This document shows, piece after piece, positions 42,737 to 55,817 of a stretch of 64,000 bases of DNA. How positions within the stretch are numbered: position 1 is the first letter of the stretch; each line of letters opens with the position of its first letter. Location: NCBI GenBank assembly GCA_946615905.1, contig CAMOIE010000009.1, positions 1-64,000 of the forward strand, written 5' to 3'. The stretch comes from an uncultured Treponema sp. (GTDB lineage: Bacteria; Spirochaetota; Spirochaetia; Treponematales; Treponemataceae). Made by a program: the position numbers and the translations under genes. The notes under the pieces are model-generated. The model made no database searches. It was not told the origin of the DNA and worked only from the letters and a program-made list of their open reading frames with translations.

Positions 42737-42820
42737 TTTTTCTTTAATCTTAATTATTAATTGAAAATATTTGAAAAATCCTTCTTCCCGTGTTATAATT
42801 TTTAAACAAAAGGAGACAAT

Positions 42821-43123
42821 ATGCAGATTGTTGAGCAAAGAAACGGGACTGAAGTTGATTTGACTGTTACCGGCAGGGTTGATGTTAACACCGTCAATCA
42901 GTTTGAAAGTCAGATTACGCAGGTATTGTCGCTGTTTGTCACAAAAAAACTTGTGATTGATTTTTCCGGAGTTGACTATATTTCCAGCGCAGGAATCCGC
43001 GTTCTGCTTTCAACGCAGAAGAAAATGAAAGAAGGTCGGCAGATGATTATCAAAAATCCAGGTCCTTTTTGCAAGCAGGTTTTTGAGGTGACTGGTGCCG
43101 ATATTTTTTTGAATATTGCCTAG
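42821..43123 (+). CDS. STAS-domain anti-sigma factor antagonist
   Basis: VTGRVDVNTVNQFESQITQVL, LVIDFSGVDYISSAGIRVLLSTQKKM. Confidence 0.92.
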   Translation: MQIVEQRNGTEVDLTVTGRVDVNTVNQFESQITQVLSLFVTKKLVIDFSGVDYISSAGIRVLLSTQKKMKEGRQMIIKNPGPFCKQVFEVTGADIFLNIA

Positions 43124-43142
43124 ATTGGCTAAATTTTTCTTT

Positions 43143-44480
43143 ATGAAGTCTAAAGAACATAATGAAGAGTATTTTTATCTTCACGGAAAAGACGTTTACT
43201 CGGTGCAGAGTCTTTTGGCGACTCTGGGTTTGCAGCAGCAAAATTCGATTTATAAAGACAGCTCAAATGATTTTATCCGCTGGCCATTCAGTGCGGCAGA
43301 CTTTTTTGAGGCCGTTACAAAGACTCCTGTGGCTGATGTCCAATTGTCTCCCGCTGACAGGGCTGAGATTGATTCCATCGACGCGGAGATTAACGGCTAC
43401 AAGGCTTCCGGCGACACCATTTCCCACCAGGACCGAATAAAAGAGTTGCGGGGCCGCAAAAAGCAGATTCTCTCTTCCGCCGCCGTGAAAGCAGGTGGAG
43501 ATGAGGCGGCCATTGTCTACAAAAAATTTGTCGAAATAAACGACAGCGTTACAGTCCAAAAGAAACTCCCTCAATTTTCCAAGGTAGTCTGGCCATACAA
43601 AGAGCAGATGCCCTATTTTTCAGCGGGGCTGGAGTCATTCGCTGAGGCTGTCGCAAAAGGGGAGCCGACAGCTATAACCGGAGGCCCCTGCTTTTTCGGG
43701 GAGCATGAAGTCGACATGATTTTCACCCTAAGTGACGGCAGCCAAAAAGTCTATGACTTTACGACCCGCCGAAGAACGGGAGGAGAGCGGCTTTCCGAGG
43801 AAGCGGAGTTTACCAAGTCTCATGCAGAGCAGTTTGTCGACGTGTCATTCGTAAGTCATAAGACCTTGCTGACTACAGAAGAATACGATTCAATCTTGTA
43901 TCTCTTTGAGCTTGCTGCGGCTACGAATTCATGCTTGACTCTTCCTATAGTTGACGCCTCTTACGAAAAATATCTTGACGCGATGCTAGAAAGTCTCGGT
44001 GAGGATATAAGAAAGAAAGCAATGACCCGATTCAGGAATGTCGCCCGTCCGATTATCGATATGTATTTGGATTTGTTTGAATTCTTCAAGAAAAAGTATC
44101 CAAAGGTTAAATGCCTCCTCATGCACGGGGATGACAAGGAAAAACTCGGCCTCTACTACGAAAAAAGAACTCCCTTTGTCGAAAAAAACTCGACCCGCAG
44201 AATCATATCTGGAATCAAAGAAAAGGTGGAGTCCGTGAAGGATTATATTACCCTGCCGGCCCTGCCTTATTATTTTTGGGGAATAAAGAACGTGCTTGAG
44301 GTTGACTACCTTGGTGAAACCGATTCTTTTTGGAAGTGCCGCAAAATGCACAAGGGCGAGATGAATCTTTCCGCCCTCTTGTACCCGATTAAAATCAGCT
44401 CGGACGGCTGGCGTACGATTTTCTCAACGGATCTTGAACACAAGGAATACATAAAGAGGGAAGACTATGGCAAACGTTAA
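43143..44480 (+). CDS. Hypothetical protein in STAS/MFS/SpoIIE operon
   Basis: ~445-aa ORF; no family recognised; overlaps the next gene by 14 nt. Confidence 0.7.
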   Translation: MKSKEHNEEYFYLHGKDVYSVQSLLATLGLQQQNSIYKDSSNDFIRWPFSAADFFEAVTKTPVADVQLSPADRAEIDSIDAEINGYKASGDTISHQDRIKELRGRKKQILSSAAVKAGGDEAAIVYKKFVEINDSVTVQKKLPQFSKVVWPYKEQMPYFSAGLESFAEAVAKGEPTAITGGPCFFGEHEVDMIFTLSDGSQKVYDFTTRRRTGGERLSEEAEFTKSHAEQFVDVSFVSHKTLLTTEEYDSILYLFELAAATNSCLTLPIVDASYEKYLDAMLESLGEDIRKKAMTRFRNVARPIIDMYLDLFEFFKKKYPKVKCLLMHGDDKEKLGLYYEKRTPFVEKNSTRRIISGIKEKVESVKDYITLPALPYYFWGIKNVLEVDYLGETDSFWKCRKMHKGEMNLSALLYPIKISSDGWRTIFSTDLEHKEYIKREDYGKR

Positions 44481-47385
44481 AATCCGCTCACTTATTGTTT
44501 TTTCTTTTTTGCTTTCGCTCGCCCTTGGGATTTTCACATTGGTGAACCGCCAGTCTCTTGCCATTCCTCCTTCATCCACGCTGGAGCTTGACTCCCCCTA
44601 CATTGTCCGTGACTACGGAGATTTGCGGTATATCCTTGACAGGCAGAGAACCCGCATCGTCATAATCGAAAAAGACACAGGCGCTCTTGTCCGCACGCTT
44701 CCCCGCGCCGGTGACAAAGAGACTTTTACCTATGCGGATGACTTTCTTGTGGACAGTCAGGGTTGTGTATATGTGAAGGAAGGCGGCTGGAAGGGAAACC
44801 GTATAGCCCGCGAGGCCGTTCTTCGCTACGATCCTGATGGAAAATTTACTGACTCCTATATAAGCACGGATTACGCCTGGCTGCCGAATGAGGACACGAG
44901 CCTTATAAACAAGCACAGGATTATGCTCCTTTCTGTTGAGGACAATATTCTCTGTTACGGAATTAAAAAGAAGGACACCGTTGAAATTCACTCTTTGAAT
45001 GTGAAGAATCTAAAAAAGAGCAAAAGCGATGGCGTTAAAATTTACTTTTTCAAAAACGCCTTCAATCTTGTTAATGACATGACCATCGGAAAAGACGGTG
45101 AAATTTACATGCTGGACAAGGCCGGCCGTCTTTACGTCCTCAAGGATTCTGTTTCTGGAATCCCGGAGCTGGTAGCCGAGGCGAAGGATGGGGAATATCC
45201 CAACTGGATAGAAGGAACTGACGGCGGACTTTTATACACGGACTTGTATTGTGACGGAGTGAAAAAACTGGATTTTGCAAGCGGAAGCTCCAGCCTGATT
45301 ATTCCTGAATGCGGCTCTGCCACGGTGACACCGCTTCCATTTTCTGACTTGAAAAATCCTGTTAAAAAGTCAGGCCGACTTTTGTGGGAGCGCATTCTTT
45401 TGGCAGTCGCGCTTCTTTCCCTACTTTCATTTGCCGCATTTTTATTCTTTTTGTTTTTGGCCTTTATGCGGAGCGAGATGCATGTCATTCGCCGGATTAC
45501 AGTCTACATAATCCTGATTGTTCTGGCCGTCTCTGCTACAATCACTTTTAAACTGACGGAAGAATTCTCAAAGACGATGAGAAGCCAGATTCTGATTCAG
45601 ATGGAAAACATGGCCTATTCCGTCGCGAACACAATCCCGGCTGCCAGCCTTGACGCAATCCACAGCGCGAAGGATTTTGACACGGACTCCTACCGGGCTT
45701 TGATTGCCAGCATGGAAAGCGTAATCGACACCAGACTGGACATAAACAGCAACGTCTACTGCGACTTGTTTAAAATCGATGAGGCACATGGAGCCTATGC
45801 CTGCGCCTACCTTGATCAGGCGATTGGCACCTACTACCCGCTGTCGGAATCTGAAATCAGCGAGATTGAGCAGATTTATAAAAGCAAAAAGCCTGTCAAC
45901 TCAAGCAAGAACGACACGTCCGCCTCCTATACTTATGCCTCAGTGCCTGTGATAAACGACGCTGGCAGGGTTTGCGGGGTTGTATCCGTCATGACCGAGA
46001 ATTTCATGCTGGACGACAAAATTTCTGCCATGAAAAAAAGCGTCCTGCTCGGAATCGTCGTCACAATGATTTTCATCTGGCTTTTAATGAGCGAGATTCT
46101 TTCCTACGTGCTGTCAAAATCACGCGCGCAGATGGAAAAATCGGAACTTCTGGCGAGGGGGCTTGAGGCTCCAAAAGCATTCCCGGACTATTCTGTCCGT
46201 CTTATTGTTTTTGCCCTTTTTGCTTCCTATAACATGTCGACGACCTTCCTTCCGATGATAATCGCAAACGGAGCCTTTGAGTCTCTTGGAGGAGGAAGCC
46301 ATACGCTGGCGGCTGCCCTTCCAATTTCAGTCAACCTGCTCATTATCGGGCTTATGGCCTTGTTCTGCGAGGGAACAATCAGGCGGATCGGCATGAGAAA
46401 AACCGTAGTTATCGGTGCTTCCCTCTCAGCTTTCAGCAACCTCTTGATTTTCGCTTTCCCAGACTTGTATGCCCTTCTTTTCGTCTCATTGATACTTGAC
46501 GGAATCGGTGTCGGACTTACGACGAATGCCCTTTACCTGCTGGTCTCCCAAATTCCTGATGCGAGCGGGCGAACGGCAGGTTACGCAGCCTACAATGCCG
46601 CACAAATCTCAGGAATTAATTTCGGAATGCTTTCCGGAGCCGCCCTTGCGTCGAACATCGGCCGTCTGCCGGTCTTCCCTATTGTCACGCTCATGTGGCT
46701 TGTGACGGCCCTTCTTTTCTGCTCAATCTGGAAGTCCCTCGGCCTTTCATCAGGGAAAAAAGCGGAGGAAAAAAGCTCTTCGTCAAATCCTGCCCGCATA
46801 ATCTCTTTTTTGAGGCGGAGAAAGGTCTGGTCTTCTATCCTGCTTCTGCAGTGCCCCTTTGCGCTTATGGGAAGCTTTATCTACTATTATCTGCCGCTGT
46901 ATGCGGATTCGAATTCTTTAAGCGAAGTTACGGTCGCTGTCCTGATGATGATTTATGCCGCTTTCGCGATTTATGCCGGCGGCTGGCTTACCCGGCAGGT
47001 TGTGACATATACCGGCCGCCTCTGTCCTTATGTCGCTGTCACGGTCTGCGCATCAGCCCTTGGCCTTTATGCCTTCATCGGAAATATCACCGGGCTTTTG
47101 CTCGCGATTTTTTTGATGGGGCTTGCGAACGGCTTCGGACGGTCAGTTTTGCAGTCTCATTTTTCAATCCTTAAGGAATGCGAGGAATTTGGAATTCCTG
47201 ATTCGATGGGAGTCTTTAATTTTACGGATTTTATAGGCCAGTCATTCGGACCTGCGGTTATGGGGGCGGTTCTGCTTTCAAAGAACAGTCATAAAGCGAC
47301 TCTTCTTTTTGTGATTGTCCTTGCCGTCCTCACGTTGACACACATAGTCGCCAATCTTCCGAAGAAAAAAGCCAAGGGGGAATAA
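44467..47385 (+). CDS. Multi-domain membrane protein: propeller-like region, sensor-like region and MFS-type transporter
   Basis: 972 aa. N-terminal repeats (YADDFLVDSQGCVYVKEGG, DMTIGKDGEIYMLDKAGRLYVL), TM segments around a Cache-like region, then ~12 hydrophobic segments with MFS-like LILDGIGVGLTTNALYLLVSQIPDASGRTAGYAAYN. Confidence 0.75.
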   Translation: MANVKIRSLIVFSFLLSLALGIFTLVNRQSLAIPPSSTLELDSPYIVRDYGDLRYILDRQRTRIVIIEKDTGALVRTLPRAGDKETFTYADDFLVDSQGCVYVKEGGWKGNRIAREAVLRYDPDGKFTDSYISTDYAWLPNEDTSLINKHRIMLLSVEDNILCYGIKKKDTVEIHSLNVKNLKKSKSDGVKIYFFKNAFNLVNDMTIGKDGEIYMLDKAGRLYVLKDSVSGIPELVAEAKDGEYPNWIEGTDGGLLYTDLYCDGVKKLDFASGSSSLIIPECGSATVTPLPFSDLKNPVKKSGRLLWERILLAVALLSLLSFAAFLFFLFLAFMRSEMHVIRRITVYIILIVLAVSATITFKLTEEFSKTMRSQILIQMENMAYSVANTIPAASLDAIHSAKDFDTDSYRALIASMESVIDTRLDINSNVYCDLFKIDEAHGAYACAYLDQAIGTYYPLSESEISEIEQIYKSKKPVNSSKNDTSASYTYASVPVINDAGRVCGVVSVMTENFMLDDKISAMKKSVLLGIVVTMIFIWLLMSEILSYVLSKSRAQMEKSELLARGLEAPKAFPDYSVRLIVFALFASYNMSTTFLPMIIANGAFESLGGGSHTLAAALPISVNLLIIGLMALFCEGTIRRIGMRKTVVIGASLSAFSNLLIFAFPDLYALLFVSLILDGIGVGLTTNALYLLVSQIPDASGRTAGYAAYNAAQISGINFGMLSGAALASNIGRLPVFPIVTLMWLVTALLFCSIWKSLGLSSGKKAEEKSSSSNPARIISFLRRRKVWSSILLLQCPFALMGSFIYYYLPLYADSNSLSEVTVAVLMMIYAAFAIYAGGWLTRQVVTYTGRLCPYVAVTVCASALGLYAFIGNITGLLLAIFLMGLANGFGRSVLQSHFSILKECEEFGIPDSMGVFNFTDFIGQSFGPAVMGAVLLSKNSHKATLLFVIVLAVLTLTHIVANLPKKKAKGE

Positions 47386-47387
47386 AT

Positions 47388-49055
47388 ATGGAAAAGAGTA
47401 AGAAAAAGCTTGGCAGCAGCATGAGAATTTCTGTGATAATTTTCACAGTCCTTCTGGCCTTATGTCTGGGAACCATCGGCTACATGACCTTTTACCGGGG
47501 CATGATTCAAAGTTACCGGGATTATGAGGGGGCTGTGCTGAATCTTGCCATTTCTGATTTGGACTGGGATTCCATCGATGAGAGCATTATGGCGAACGAT
47601 GAGGACGAGGCGTTCATGACCCTCCAGAGGCGGCTCAATTATATAAAGAGCAGCACGAAAATATCATGGATTTATATGCTCAAGCCCCTGAACACAAATG
47701 ATTCAGACAACATGCGCTACATTTCAACCGGAATCACGGAGCAAGAATACGCAAGCTACAAAGAACGCGGCCTGGAGCCTGTCCATCTTGGAAAAATGAC
47801 CGGCACTGAATATCCGCCGTCTGTGGCTGAACAATACCTTGATTTTTACAATAACAGCAGTCAGGGAGAATACTGGTACTATCCGAACAAGACCGAATGG
47901 GGATATGTGTATACGACTTCCCTTGTCGTACGCAATTCCAAGGGAAAAAAGCTCGGTGTCCTAAGCGTGGACATAAACATGTCGGAAATCGAGGCCGCAA
48001 TCCGTGTCTATCCACTTGTGATTCTTGCGGCGAGCGTGATAATTGCGGCGATATTTATTTTCCTCCTGACAGCCTGGATACACCGCCGTGTAATAGATCC
48101 TCTGGGCCGACTGCAGCAGTCCGCAGTTGATTTTGTGAGCAAGGCTAACGGTAATGATGTTGAGAGCCTTTCATTTGAAAACCCTGAGATTCACACGCAG
48201 GATGAGATTGAGACCCTTTCAGGCGCGCTTATTTCTATGGCCGCCGGCACTAAGGATTACATGAAAAAGCTTCTGGTGGAGACTTCCGAAAGGGAGCGAA
48301 TTTCGGCTGATTTGAACGTTGCCGCCCAGATTCAGGACGACATGCTGCCGCACATATTCCCAGGATTCCCGGAGCGCAAGGATTTTACGCTTTTTGCCTC
48401 GATGAACCCGGCAAAGGAAGTCGGCGGTGACTTTTACGACTTTTTCTTCCTTGATGAAAGCCATATTGCCCTTGTAATCGCGGATGTTTCTGGAAAAGGA
48501 GTTCCTGCCGCGCTCTTTATGGTTATCTCAAAGACCATAATTAAAAACCGCGCCCTTTCCGGTTCAATTCCCTCTCCGGCTCAGGTTCTATACGATGCGA
48601 ACAATCAGCTTTGTGAGGGAAACAAGGCGGAGCTTTTTGTGACAGTCTGGTTAGGTATTCTTGATTTGAAGACAGGAATTCTTACAGCAGCGAATGCCGG
48701 ACATGAGTATCCTGCGATTCGTCAGCCCGGAAAAGCCTTTGAGCTTTTGAAAGACAAGCACGGCATCGCCCTGGCAGTATTTGAGGGGGCAAAGTATTCT
48801 GATTATACAGTGCAGCTGGAGCCTGGTTCTACGCTTTTTGTTTACACCGATGGGGTTCCTGAGGCCACGGATGCCAAAAATGAGCTTTTCGAGCTTGACC
48901 GGCTGACAAAGGCATTGAATCTGAATCCTGATGCGGATCCACCGGACTTGCTGCCCTTGGTCCGCAAGGAAGTTGACTCTTTTGTAGGCGAGGCACCGCA
49001 GTTTGACGATATTACGATGCTCTCCTTGAAATACTGGGGAAACAAGGCTGACTAA
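47388..49055 (+). CDS. PP2C/SpoIIE-family serine phosphatase with extracytoplasmic sensor and HAMP-like linker
   Basis: AAQIQDDMLPHIFPGFPERKDFTLFASMNPAKEVGGDFYDFFFLDESHIALVIADVSGKGVPAALFM; FVYTDGVPEATDAKNELF; TM segments in the N-terminal half. Confidence 0.92.
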   Translation: MEKSKKKLGSSMRISVIIFTVLLALCLGTIGYMTFYRGMIQSYRDYEGAVLNLAISDLDWDSIDESIMANDEDEAFMTLQRRLNYIKSSTKISWIYMLKPLNTNDSDNMRYISTGITEQEYASYKERGLEPVHLGKMTGTEYPPSVAEQYLDFYNNSSQGEYWYYPNKTEWGYVYTTSLVVRNSKGKKLGVLSVDINMSEIEAAIRVYPLVILAASVIIAAIFIFLLTAWIHRRVIDPLGRLQQSAVDFVSKANGNDVESLSFENPEIHTQDEIETLSGALISMAAGTKDYMKKLLVETSERERISADLNVAAQIQDDMLPHIFPGFPERKDFTLFASMNPAKEVGGDFYDFFFLDESHIALVIADVSGKGVPAALFMVISKTIIKNRALSGSIPSPAQVLYDANNQLCEGNKAELFVTVWLGILDLKTGILTAANAGHEYPAIRQPGKAFELLKDKHGIALAVFEGAKYSDYTVQLEPGSTLFVYTDGVPEATDAKNELFELDRLTKALNLNPDADPPDLLPLVRKEVDSFVGEAPQFDDITMLSLKYWGNKAD

Positions 49056-49058
49056 AAT

Positions 49059-50147
49059 TTATTTGACTGTTCTTGCGATTCTAAAGCCCATGTAGTCGTA
49101 GTTTTCGTTGGGGTCGAATGAGTAGCGGTCGCCGGCGTAGGCGAAGGGCGTGTATTTTGAGCAGGAGCCGCCCCTGCTAATTCTTTGAGAGCCGAATTCG
49201 GGGCCTGTTGAGCGACTGCCTGCAGGAAGCTCTATATAGGAGGCCATCCAGTCCCAGCAGAACTCAAGCACGTTGCCCGACATGTCGAAAAGGCCTGAGC
49301 CGTTCGGGTTTCCGCTTCCGGGGGCGGGCGGGGCATCCGGCGTGAATGGGGTTCCGGCAGTTCCCACCAAGTGGGTCCTGTCCGTGTTGGAGGCGGTCCA
49401 AGCTAGCTCGTCCTCCGGAAAGGACGGGTCTTTGCGGCCTGTAATGTCAACTTGGCCTGAGAACAAGGCTCCAGACTGGAAGCCCGCTTTTGTCTTGCGG
49501 GCGGCGAATTCCCACTCGGCCTCAGTCGGAAGGCGGTAGCCTTCTCCTTCAAAATCGCAGACGCACTGGTCAAGGGAGAGAGAGTCGGTAGAGTCGCGGA
49601 GGACTTTCCCGTTGAAAGTGTATGCGGGCTGGAGTCCTGAGATTTCGCTCAGGGCGTTGCACCAGACAACAGCATCGTACCAGGAGATTTTTGTCACCGG
49701 CTGGAATTTTCCGCTCTCAGTCGGGGCGGCCCCGTATTTTCCCTCGGAGCCTTCCTGCCCCTTGCTCGCGAAGACGTAGCCTCTTTTTTCCGCCTGAACG
49801 CGGATTTTCTGCCAGAACTCGTAGGTTGTCTCCGTTCTGTTAAGCTCGAACGGGGTAATCCAGATTGTGGCAGTGTAGGACTGGTTCCCTTCTCCGATTG
49901 TGTAGACTGAGTATTGCTCGCCGTGGGCAGTGTCAGGACCTAGGCGAACCATGTCGAATGATGAGAAAACATAGCCTTCGCTGAGGGCGGCCTTGGGGGC
50001 GGATTTTTCAGAATTTGCGGGATTTATTGCGGGCGAGCCTGACTTGTAGGCGGGGTTTCTTGCTGCCCCTGTGTCCTTGCGCCAGTTCTGGGCGCTCATT
50101 TGAAAGATAAAAGTTGAGGCGAGAATAAAAGGCAGAATTTTCTTCAT
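49059..50147 (-). CDS. Formylglycine-generating-enzyme/SUMF1-like lipoprotein or exported protein
   Basis: YRLPTEAEWEFAAR, GLFDMSGNVLEFCWDWMA, RISRGGSCSKYTPFAYAGDRYSFDPNENYDYMGFRIAR. Start placed at 50147 (MKKILPFILASTFIFQMSA). Confidence 0.9.
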   Translation of the reverse strand: MKKILPFILASTFIFQMSAQNWRKDTGAARNPAYKSGSPAINPANSEKSAPKAALSEGYVFSSFDMVRLGPDTAHGEQYSVYTIGEGNQSYTATIWITPFELNRTETTYEFWQKIRVQAEKRGYVFASKGQEGSEGKYGAAPTESGKFQPVTKISWYDAVVWCNALSEISGLQPAYTFNGKVLRDSTDSLSLDQCVCDFEGEGYRLPTEAEWEFAARKTKAGFQSGALFSGQVDITGRKDPSFPEDELAWTASNTDRTHLVGTAGTPFTPDAPPAPGSGNPNGSGLFDMSGNVLEFCWDWMASYIELPAGSRSTGPEFGSQRISRGGSCSKYTPFAYAGDRYSFDPNENYDYMGFRIARTVK

Positions 50148-50252
50148 TATAACCTCCTGACGGGGCGTTGCGGGGTGTCCCCGCAGAAGGGGGTAGGTGA
50201 GCAACGCAGTGCGAACTAGGGGGAAGGCTTTCCCCCGAAAAATTTTTCACTT

Positions 50253-52808: not shown

Positions 52809-54527
52809 TTAGTAAACTCCGACAACAATCGGCGTGTTCCAAAGGGAGCTGTATTTTTTCACGCCTTCGGAACTTTCTTCCCACACAGATTGTAACGCAT
52901 AAGAGCGGTCGCGGTAAACTGTCTTGCTGTTCATCAGGGTCGGCTTGAGTGAATTCCAGCCGCGTGAGAAAATTATGTGCTGGCTGTCTAGATTTCCGAA
53001 ATACCATTCGGAAGGATTTTCGACCGGTCGGAAGGGCTTGTATTCCATTCCTGCCCCAAGGGCGGGGTCTACAGGAACCCAGCCGAAATTCTCGATGTAA
53101 AAGGCGCACCACCAGTGGTCGATGGCTTTCATGTCAGCGTTCGCGAGAATTCCTGAATAAATCTGGGCAGGTACACCGCATGCCCTCAAAAGCGATGTAT
53201 ACAGAATGGCAAAATCGTAGGCGCTTCCCTTCTTTTTGTAGAGAAAGGCCTCCGGGTCAAATGGCTTGTTGCTTTCCTTTGCTGAATACTTGAAATTCGC
53301 AGTGAGCCAGTCGTAGACAATTTTTGCCTTGCTGAAGGGGTTTGTATAGCCTTTTGTAATTTCTGCGGCAGTCCTTACGACTTTATCGTTGCGGCTTTGG
53401 ATTAAATCGTCAGCGGCGGTAAAGGTCTGGAATAAGGCCCGCTTTTTTTCGCTAAAGTTTTTGACGTTTTTCGGATTAATATCCGTTTCGACTGTGTATG
53501 TCGCAACTACGAAAGATTGTTTCGTGGTGACTTTTTTAGGTCCCTGAGTTGACAGGTCAAACTGGTGGATTGTAGTTCCCTTGTATTCGTTGATTACGGG
53601 GTCTGGTGTGCATTCTGAAAGTTCCGCTACAGGTTGGCGGGATGTCACTGGCGGAAATGGAATCCTTAAGGTCAAGGATGCCTGCTTGGTGATTTTTATT
53701 GAATCGACTTCTGCTGATGACTGAATAAGATAAGTCCTGCGGGAGGAATACGTCTTTTTGCCGACCGGAATGTCTATGTCCTCGTGGTAGTAGTTGCTGC
53801 CGCCTTTTTCAGTCTGAATATAGACTAGACCGTCTGCAGCCCCGTCAGGAACACGGACTCGGACCTCATTGCCTGACCAGTATTCGTAGTCAAAGTCTCC
53901 CTCGTCCGCAGGAATGAATTTGGGATCGAATTTATTTGCCTCAAGGCCGAAATTTTTTGCTGAAACGGAAGATGCAGAGTCATCTCTGTTTGCGGTGAAA
54001 TAAACTTTTGAGGTCCCTCGGATTTCGCCGAAGTTTGACCCTGTGATTGTGAGCAAGGTTCCGGGGGCGGCTTTTTCCGGCTGAATGGAGACGATTATCG
54101 GCATGGTCGTTTTTGTGTTTGGCGGAACTGCTACTGGAATTCCTGCTGCGTTCGCAAAAAATACTGGCTTTGATTTTCCGTTTTTGCTTGAGACGTAAAC
54201 GAGTCCGTCCTGGATATTTGCAGGTAGAACAAAGCGGATTGCAGTATCGGTCCATTCGATAAAGCCGCCCTCTGTGATTTTTGATCCACCGATTTCAACG
54301 TATGAAAGATATTCGCGAGCTGGACCGAAATTCTCACCGTTGATTATCATTATGTCGCCGGGTGAACCTACAGGCGGATTTATGGAAGTTATTGTCGGTG
54401 TTTTTTTTGCCCCGGCAGAACACAATGAAAAAACGCCGACGGCGATTGCGACGGCGCAAACCAGAGAAAGGATTCTAAAAAGGGGTGAACCCCGTAAAAG
54501 TTTGCTGACTATTTCTTTGAGGCTCAC
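52809..54527 (-). CDS. IPT/TIG-repeat and transglutaminase-domain protein
   Basis: TITSINPPVGSPGDIMIINGENFG and second TIG repeat; ACGVPAQIYSGIL...AIDHWWCAFYIENFGWVPVDPALG. Confidence 0.88.
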   Translation of the reverse strand: MSLKEIVSKLLRGSPLFRILSLVCAVAIAVGVFSLCSAGAKKTPTITSINPPVGSPGDIMIINGENFGPAREYLSYVEIGGSKITEGGFIEWTDTAIRFVLPANIQDGLVYVSSKNGKSKPVFFANAAGIPVAVPPNTKTTMPIIVSIQPEKAAPGTLLTITGSNFGEIRGTSKVYFTANRDDSASSVSAKNFGLEANKFDPKFIPADEGDFDYEYWSGNEVRVRVPDGAADGLVYIQTEKGGSNYYHEDIDIPVGKKTYSSRRTYLIQSSAEVDSIKITKQASLTLRIPFPPVTSRQPVAELSECTPDPVINEYKGTTIHQFDLSTQGPKKVTTKQSFVVATYTVETDINPKNVKNFSEKKRALFQTFTAADDLIQSRNDKVVRTAAEITKGYTNPFSKAKIVYDWLTANFKYSAKESNKPFDPEAFLYKKKGSAYDFAILYTSLLRACGVPAQIYSGILANADMKAIDHWWCAFYIENFGWVPVDPALGAGMEYKPFRPVENPSEWYFGNLDSQHIIFSRGWNSLKPTLMNSKTVYRDRSYALQSVWEESSEGVKKYSSLWNTPIVVGVY

Positions 54528-55273
54528 CGGTCTAATCCACTGTCAACGCGGGAAGGGCGGACGTTGTAAGGAATTTGCGGAACAAGGGACTGATGCTCTG
54601 TCTCGCCGATTGACCTGATTCCAGGAACCCTTATTTTTATCGGGAGCCTTGAAGTTTCCCTTGAAAATTCTGGGCGGAATACGTCAACATCGCCTGGAAT
54701 GAAGTCTCGTGCGTTGAATGCCGAGTTGTTTGAGGCTAAGGTTGCCCCTCTGATGACGGAATTGTTGTTTGAGACTGTGGAGACATTATCCTCTGTCAAG
54801 GCTTGAGAAATCACTCCGCGAGGAATATTCCCATCGATTACGATGCCTTTTTCCGCAATCGGCTGAATCGAAGTGTTCCTTGTAATCGCATTAATTGCTG
54901 TTCCGGCTCCATCCTTAATTGAGGAAAGCCTTCCAGGAAGAAGAAAAACTGCGAGTACAGCCGCAGCGGCTGCCAACGGAGTGACGACTTTGCCGAGGCT
55001 AAATTTATAGACGTTTCCTTTTGAAATCTCTGTATTCTTTGCGTAGCGCATTTTTGTCTGCAAACGCTCAAATGAAGCATCGAGAAAGGCCTGGTCAAAA
55101 CTCAAGTCTTTTGAGTCTGAGCGGAGGATTTCGCTTATCTGCTTCATCCTGCCAAGCTCTTCCGAGCATTTTTTACAGGATCCAAGGTGAGACTCGTATT
55201 CCTTGATAAATTCTTGCGGCATTTCACCGTCAATGTAGACTGAGTGCAAATCTTTTTCAGGACAAGTAGACAT
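54524..55273 (-). CDS. Putative anti-sigma factor (zinc-finger type)
   Basis: MSTCPEKDLHSVYIDGEMPQEFIKEYESHLGSCKKCSEELG; single TM segment; adjacent to the ECF sigma gene. Confidence 0.85.
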   Translation of the reverse strand: MSTCPEKDLHSVYIDGEMPQEFIKEYESHLGSCKKCSEELGRMKQISEILRSDSKDLSFDQAFLDASFERLQTKMRYAKNTEISKGNVYKFSLGKVVTPLAAAAAVLAVFLLPGRLSSIKDGAGTAINAITRNTSIQPIAEKGIVIDGNIPRGVISQALTEDNVSTVSNNNSVIRGATLASNNSAFNARDFIPGDVDVFRPEFSRETSRLPIKIRVPGIRSIGETEHQSLVPQIPYNVRPSRVDSGLDR

Positions 55274-55817
55274 TTTCTTCCCCCACAAGTTTTTCAAGCT
55301 GTTCTCTGGCTCGGAACATGCGGACTTTTACGTTGCCTTCCGTTATTCCGAGAACTTTGCCAATCTCTTTATAGTTCAAATCCCCGTATTCGCGGAGAAT
55401 CAAAACTTCCTTTAAATTCTTCGGCAGCTTTTCAAGTGCCTTGATCATCTGCTGACGGTTTTCTTCCTGAAGAAGCTCTTTCTCTCCAGTAGGATTTTCC
55501 CGTTTGTCTTCATATAATGCCCGCTGGTAAGCCTTACGTTCGCGGGTCTTGCGCTTGGCGTAGTTGAGCGAGGCATTTTTGACGACCCTGATGAGCCAGA
55601 ATTTCGCATCATCAATTGATGGAAAGACCAGCTTTTTTTCGTTCGCCTTGATGTACGAATCGTGAACTAAATCTTCTGCGGCCTCCGGGTCGTTCACAAC
55701 CCTCCACGAGATTTTGTAGAGGAGGGTCATGGTCTGCATATATAGTTCTTTAAAATCAGCCGGATCTGCGCAGTTTATCGGCTTTTTCGACTGACTGCTT
55801 TCCATATCACTAAACAT
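55257..55817 (-). CDS. ECF-type RNA polymerase sigma factor
   Basis: DPEAAEDLVHDSYIKA (region 2) and LREYGDLNYKEIGKVLGITEGNVKVRMFRAREQL (region 4). Confidence 0.92.
   Translation of the reverse strand: MFSDMESSQSKKPINCADPADFKELYMQTMTLLYKISWRVVNDPEAAEDLVHDSYIKANEKKLVFPSIDDAKFWLIRVVKNASLNYAKRKTRERKAYQRALYEDKRENPTGEKELLQEENRQQMIKALEKLPKNLKEVLILREYGDLNYKEIGKVLGITEGNVKVRMFRAREQLEKLVGEENVYLS

Follow-up and report, generated by a model that had tools for sequence, protein, structure and literature searches.

Why should a protein with the body of a transporter be encoded among genes that appear to spell out a partner switch? The question arises from a stretch of 64,000 nucleotides (hereafter, the window) from an uncultured Treponema sp. 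(contig CAMOIE010000009.1 of GCA_946615905.1), in which four tightly packed genes encode a STAS protein, a protein of 445 residues, a membrane protein of 972 residues with an MFS-like body, and a SpoIIE-type phosphatase. In an initial annotation, it was proposed that the MFS-like protein acts as a transceptor feeding a phosphorylation switch, with the 445-residue protein as effector or target.

Gene layout and domain composition

An ORF check of the window recovered all four plus-strand reading frames, the 14-nt overlap between the genes of the 445- and 972-residue proteins and the 2-nt gap in front of the phosphatase gene, just as first annotated. Together with a predicted promoter, the features of the locus are:

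42771–42799, plus strand: predicted sigma70-type promoter, TTGAAA-17-TATAAT (by consensus match only, 11 of 12 positions)
42821–43123, plus strand: STAS-domain protein, 100 residues, RsbV/SpoIIAA-like anti-sigma-factor antagonist (Pfam, TIGR00377)
43143–44480, plus strand: protein of 445 residues, counted from its ATG, of no known family (ORF; Pfam and NCBIfam blank)
44467–47385, plus strand: membrane protein of 972 residues with propeller, Cache-like and MFS regions (Pfam, structure model, hydropathy)
47388–49055, plus strand: protein of 555 residues with a membrane sensor, a HAMP-like region and a SpoIIE/RsbU-type PP2C phosphatase (Pfam, motifs)

The predicted promoter has an extended −10 element (TG before the second hexamer), and the STAS gene starts about 20 nt downstream of it. 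The 445-residue protein's gene follows after a further 19 nt, with no obvious Shine-Dalgarno sequence in front of it. At the other end of the block, the phosphatase gene stops 3 nt from a convergent FGE-sulfatase-like gene (49059–50204, minus strand). Elsewhere in the genus, STAS genes that belong to other SpoIIE/RsbW/STAS modules repeatedly have FGE-sulfatase-like genes beside them (L002, L160, L161 and L163); the latter are not adjacent to the last three genes of the block in its relatives. About 6 kb downstream, outside the operon, an ECF-type sigma factor gene and a likely anti-sigma factor gene were recognized by eye (54524–55817, minus strand).

The structure model of the 972-residue protein comprises a transmembrane helix (residues 2–26), an all-beta region (46–280), two helices (302–335 and 340–387), a mixed alpha/beta region (392–511), a further helix (512–563) and a helical body (574–962). 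The predicted order is thus TM–beta-propeller–TM–TM–Cache-like–TM–MFS, with one of the transmembrane segments lying within residues 340–387; all three parts suspected initially, namely the propeller, the sensor-like region flanked by transmembrane segments and the MFS body, are present in the model. The MFS assignment is based on Pfam (MFS_1, 81.8 bits, residues 581–896) and on a structure comparison in which residues 551–967 match VMAT2, VAChT, YajR and NorA with Z of about 20; by structure as well as by sequence, the nearest relatives of this body are drug exporters. The propeller region has sequence matches to designed propellers and to one PQQ-propeller. The Cache call is derived from the model and from sub-threshold Pfam matches (PF22309 with E 0.028; sCache_3_3 with E 0.011 in a homologue). 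The structure models used in this study are of middling confidence (pLDDT 64–67).

The two proteins at the ends of the block are more readily classified. The STAS protein matches the Pfam STAS family with 58.5 bits and TIGR00377 with 59.7 bits (cut-off 53.45), and it contains the serine motif YISSAGIR, which includes Ser56, a candidate site of phosphorylation given the position of the motif in known families. The phosphatase matches SpoIIE with 156.6 bits, its HAMP match being sub-threshold. Its motifs GGDFYD (Asp348), ADVSGKG (Asp366), TDG (Asp488) and FDD (Asp540–541) are invariant in 10 sequences, and the metal-binding aspartates of SpoIIE/PP2C phosphatases are intact. Both Pfam matches are sound, and the RsbV/RsbU-like logic attributed to this pair from the outset is supported.

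A conserved trio and its probable partner switch in Treponema

Relatives of the 445-residue protein were found at 11 loci, all in Treponema MAGs and several of them from ruminant stomachs. The protein occurs in 23 of the 274 genomes of the family and in three of 296 genomes drawn from the phylum, all three from the same genus. In every related locus with a sufficiently long contig, the trio of genes for the 445-residue protein, the MFS protein and the phosphatase is intact, an arrangement that is therefore not due to chance. The 14-nt overlap within it does not vary among the 10 relatives in which it was compared (L005–L007 and L009–L015). The STAS gene stands outside this core and is missing beside the trio in many relatives; as the MAG genomes are fragmented, the absence of a gene at a contig end is uninformative. 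Of the gene order for which conservation had been expected, the trio has stood and the STAS gene has not, so that the conserved unit comprises three genes rather than four, within one Treponema genus. Gut and rumen Treponema thus keep a gene set for a transporter-shaped sensor, an enzyme-like orphan protein and a phosphatase.

Several relatives possess a longer operon, in which the genes follow each other in the order STAS–GHL10 glycosidase–RsbW-type HATPase–445-residue protein–MFS protein–phosphatase–OppB-like ABC permease. The HATPase (85.9 bits; for example L005:7566-7970) ends just upstream of the gene for the 445-residue protein. Since this operon appears at two places on the tree of the 445-residue protein, it is plausible that other lineages, including that of the window, have lost the longer arrangement.

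Given that the relatives' operons carry RsbW, the ‘missing’ kinase belongs to the system. The initial annotation reported no RsbW-like kinase nearby because the window has none, and we find no HATPase kinase elsewhere on its contig. The suggestion to look for the cognate HATPase in other parts of the genome proved fruitful: four HATPase_c_2 genes are present, all on other contigs, and a stand-alone RsbW on contig 11 (G000:C11:99928-100314) groups with the clade of in-operon RsbW proteins (support 97/96), albeit on a long branch.

We also considered whether the window's STAS protein is the orthologue of the in-operon STAS proteins and rejected this, as it is a different paralogue outside their clade in the tree. 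Its nearest relative, 57% identical, belongs to another module (in G160), where it is encoded beside another STAS gene and a HlyD-like secretion gene. Hence, the window's STAS protein may have been recruited separately. Overall, partner switching fits these data, with the contig-11 RsbW as a candidate partner of the window's STAS protein.

As for targets, the genome encodes four Sigma70_r3 proteins, which by eye are RpoD-, FliA-, RpoH- and RpoS-like, and none of the four is linked to the locus. Genomes of this group encode 6–10 SpoIIE proteins each and many STAS proteins. At two other loci (L156, G000:C2:54000-64000, and L153), another SpoIIE-STAS pair is followed by a 200-residue protein, a HlyD-like protein and a bacteriocin-type peptidase-ABC exporter (named by eye).

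Exchange of the output enzyme outside Treponema

A profile built from the first 560 residues of the 972-residue protein and searched against other Spirochaetota finds proteins of about 1000 residues with the same order of propeller, Cache and MFS regions, which align with the 972-residue protein over its full length, with about 21% of residues identical across about 950 alignment columns. Locus counts were made with profiles built from Pfam-verified members. At 10 of the 16 loci outside the genus, the sensor-MFS gene directly adjoins a gene for a propeller-Cache–class III nucleotidyl cyclase protein, often by 4-nt overlaps; at three further loci the cyclase is encoded within the locus, and at the last three the contig ends. 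The cyclase domain (PF00211) scores 63–83 bits in the neighbours scanned; at L181, the contig includes only the propeller part of this neighbour. In yet another spirochaete, propeller, Cache, HAMP and SpoIIE regions are fused in a single protein (L232:5338-8022).

The third-gene position, which is occupied by the 445-residue protein in Treponema, is variable, too. Outside the genus it holds a formyltransferase-like gene at six loci (L180, L182, L183, L223, L224 and L225) and an LPG_synthase_C gene at seven (L184, L221, L222, L227, L233, L235 and L237); some loci have two tandem LPG_synthase_C genes. The formyltransferase-like proteins are closest to methionyl-tRNA formyltransferase (fmt), and their N-x-H and D residues are present. 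LPG_synthase_C is a family of aminoacyl-tRNA:phosphatidylglycerol transferases. The best-known members of both families act on charged tRNA, and other members use no tRNA. Homology of the 445-residue protein to these formyltransferase-like or LPG-synthase-like proteins has no support in hhalign.

Compared with the Treponema locus, these pairs of a propeller-Cache-HAMP-class III cyclase and a propeller-Cache-MFS protein share a sensor-MFS protein that is homologous over its full length and a partner gene that overlaps or adjoins it; they differ in their cyclase output, which retains the same propeller input, and in their third gene. No other observation speaks as strongly for a place of the MFS protein in signalling, and against a chance neighbourhood, as the way in which outputs are swapped around a single sensor-MFS protein. 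This swapping supports the notion of a transporter-like sensor that feeds a signalling enzyme, the latter being exchangeable, and the genomic pairing with output enzymes fits a role of the 972-residue protein as sensor or transceptor. The gene set appears to be a signalling module of an interchangeable and as yet undescribed kind; the open-access papers that we searched contain no account of one.

From these observations, we infer the following course of signalling. The 972-residue protein would carry its own extracytoplasmic sensors, the propeller and the Cache-like domain, on a drug-exporter-type MFS body, and would be made together with the sensor-SpoIIE phosphatase, with which it most likely forms a complex or acts in the same pathway. 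This pair would detect a signal, which may be a ligand or the passage of a transported substrate through the MFS body. The phosphatase would then dephosphorylate the STAS antagonist at its conserved serine, and the dephosphorylated antagonist would sequester the RsbW-type kinase and thereby free the target on which the kinase acts. The genes for STAS and RsbW share an operon in several relatives; in the genome of the window, the STAS gene is in place and the kinase gene is elsewhere. The 445-residue protein would most likely be an enzyme or effector, its activity or product being tied to the MFS protein.

The core of this scheme, a membrane-input form of partner switching that runs from the sensor-MFS protein through the phosphatase to STAS and RsbW, appears fairly probable to us; this estimate does not cover the 445-residue protein. 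The core is supported by the preserved trio with its invariant overlap, by STAS and RsbW in the relatives' operon and the grouping of the genome's own RsbW with them, by the active-site residues of the phosphatase and the serine motif of STAS, and by the cyclase neighbours and the fusion of this input to SpoIIE in other spirochaetes. It is weakened by the window's lack of a kinase and the long branch of the genome's own RsbW, by the many relatives in which no STAS gene stands beside the trio, by the position of the window's STAS protein outside the in-operon clade, by the lack of a linked target sigma factor and by the middling confidence of the models.

The locus shares a SpoIIE-type PP2C phosphatase, a STAS protein with a conserved serine and, in its relatives' operon, an RsbW-type HATPase with the RsbU-RsbV-RsbW and SpoIIE-SpoIIAA-SpoIIAB systems of Bacillus subtilis. 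In contrast to these systems, the locus has a propeller-Cache-MFS protein as its separate input and an additional orphan protein, which a glycosidase joins in the relatives' operon; the kinase is encoded outside the window, and no sigmaB/sigmaF-type target was found here. Signalling by transporter-like proteins is known from UhpC-UhpB, which consists of an MFS-like receptor for glucose-6-phosphate and a histidine kinase, and from CbrA/CrbS, an SLC5 transporter fused to a histidine kinase, in which the physiological role of transport is debated (PMC8871633). In UhpC-UhpB, as proposed here, a transporter-like membrane protein feeds a separate signalling enzyme, but UhpC signals to a histidine kinase, whereas the locus described here has a PP2C phosphatase or a cyclase. 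CbrA/CrbS likewise joins a transporter body to signal transduction, but the transporter belongs to a different superfamily and the kinase is part of the same polypeptide. UhpC is not known to have a propeller or Cache domain.

If membrane-input partner switching is the correct reading, Spirochaetota would possess a phylum-wide common front end, namely a protein that is shaped like a transporter and equipped with two sensor domains outside the cytoplasm. It could be coupled to outputs that differ between lineages, with dephosphorylation of proteins in Treponema and probably cyclic nucleotides elsewhere. An MFS-based input would thereby be added to partner switching, and the family would constitute a natural experiment in the exchange of signalling outputs.

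The 445-residue protein and competing readings

The 445-residue protein belongs to no recognized family, as had been noted before: neither Pfam nor NCBIfam yields a match, and no distant relatives were detected in phage and viral collections, in the PDB or, outside the genus, in the genomes drawn from the phylum. Its model has a pLDDT of 64, with a core (residues 165–345) mostly above 70. The predicted alpha/beta fold of residues about 126–445 resembles class Ic aminoacyl-tRNA synthetases; the best 50 entries of the fold search are all TrpRS or TyrRS, with Z of 10.4–13.9 (the highest for TrpRS), compared with the usual best Z of 7–8 for unmatched models. Foldseek returned nothing below E 0.01, and its matches include one cyclodipeptide synthase (CDPS) family. 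Unlike these enzymes, none of the 21 sequences of the family contains the HIGH (H[ILVM]GH) or KMSKS-type motifs or the CDPS motifs (catalytic Ser; Y-x-x-x-E-x-P). The tRNA-synt_1b profile (PF00579) does not match, and hhalign against CDPS, TrpRS and TyrRS alignments gives probabilities below 1% (0.3% for CDPS), with a shallow alignment (Neff 1.8). We see about an even chance that the protein has a class-I-synthetase-like fold, and a much smaller one that it has any synthetase-type activity. Since the fold match comes without motif or profile support, we propose a synthetase-like fold without synthetase chemistry as a hypothesis. In any case, a well conserved orphan family is marked out, along with a testable fold prediction.

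One assignment was rejected and another is not claimed. A cyclodipeptide synthase was suggested by a likeness seen by eye (‘YITLPALPYYF...’ versus ‘YVIAELPFFI...’) and by the one Foldseek family, with no profile support and with the motifs absent; a search of the phylum with PF16715 gave no match, but control genomes likewise gave none, so that this result carries no weight. A PD-(D/E)XK nuclease was suggested by eye (‘HEVDMI...YDFTTRRR’ and the order of predicted elements); the fold search did not return it, and the lysine is replaced by threonine.

Different readings of the locus follow from how its parts are weighted. The MFS protein could be a plain exporter whose extracytoplasmic domains are mere decoration, and the phosphatase and STAS protein could be neighbours that serve other pathways. 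The STAS gene does vary between loci, and with 6–10 SpoIIE and many STAS proteins per genome, such neighbours may arise by chance; yet the trio is co-conserved with overlapping genes, and distant families independently pair the same MFS family with a different output enzyme, which makes this reading very improbable. The switch could also have the 445-residue protein itself as its effector or target, as first proposed; STAS or RsbW would then bind or release it. The gene of this protein has the switch genes on one side and the sensor gene on the other, and directly follows RsbW in relatives, but the protein also occurs at loci that lack a linked STAS or RsbW gene, and no fold of a partner-switch target was recognized in it; we consider this reading unlikely.

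Another possibility is a biosynthesis-export unit under the control of a partner switch, in which a small molecule made by the 445-residue protein, for instance from aminoacyl-tRNA as the predicted class-Ic-like fold would permit, leaves the cell through the MFS body, and the propeller and Cache domains regulate or report on export together with the phosphatase. The invariant overlap of the two genes, the drug-exporter affinity of the MFS body, the TrpRS/TyrRS fold matches with a cyclodipeptide synthase family among the Foldseek matches, and the charged-tRNA-associated families in the third-gene position elsewhere would all agree with it. However, the profile probabilities and absent motifs, the lack of a family match and the confidence of the model argue against it, as do the tRNA-independent members of the formyltransferase and LPG-synthase families, and we assign it a low probability. 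A bolder version, which we hold to be more doubtful, would make the 445-residue protein a new enzyme of class-I-synthetase fold that uses charged tRNA to produce or alter a small product, with the MFS protein moving that product and the propeller/Cache domains reporting on it with the phosphatase or cyclase. In such ‘make-export-sense’ modules, both the maker (445-residue, formyltransferase-like or LPG-synthase-like protein) and the output (PP2C or cyclase) would be exchanged around one sensor-transporter.

Lastly, one copy of the 445-residue protein (L062:8978-10252, in G237) lacks about 28 residues in frame, through either a real deletion or an assembly fault. The missing residues hold the otherwise invariant YITLPALP...VDYLGET stretch, which is present in the other 21 sequences.
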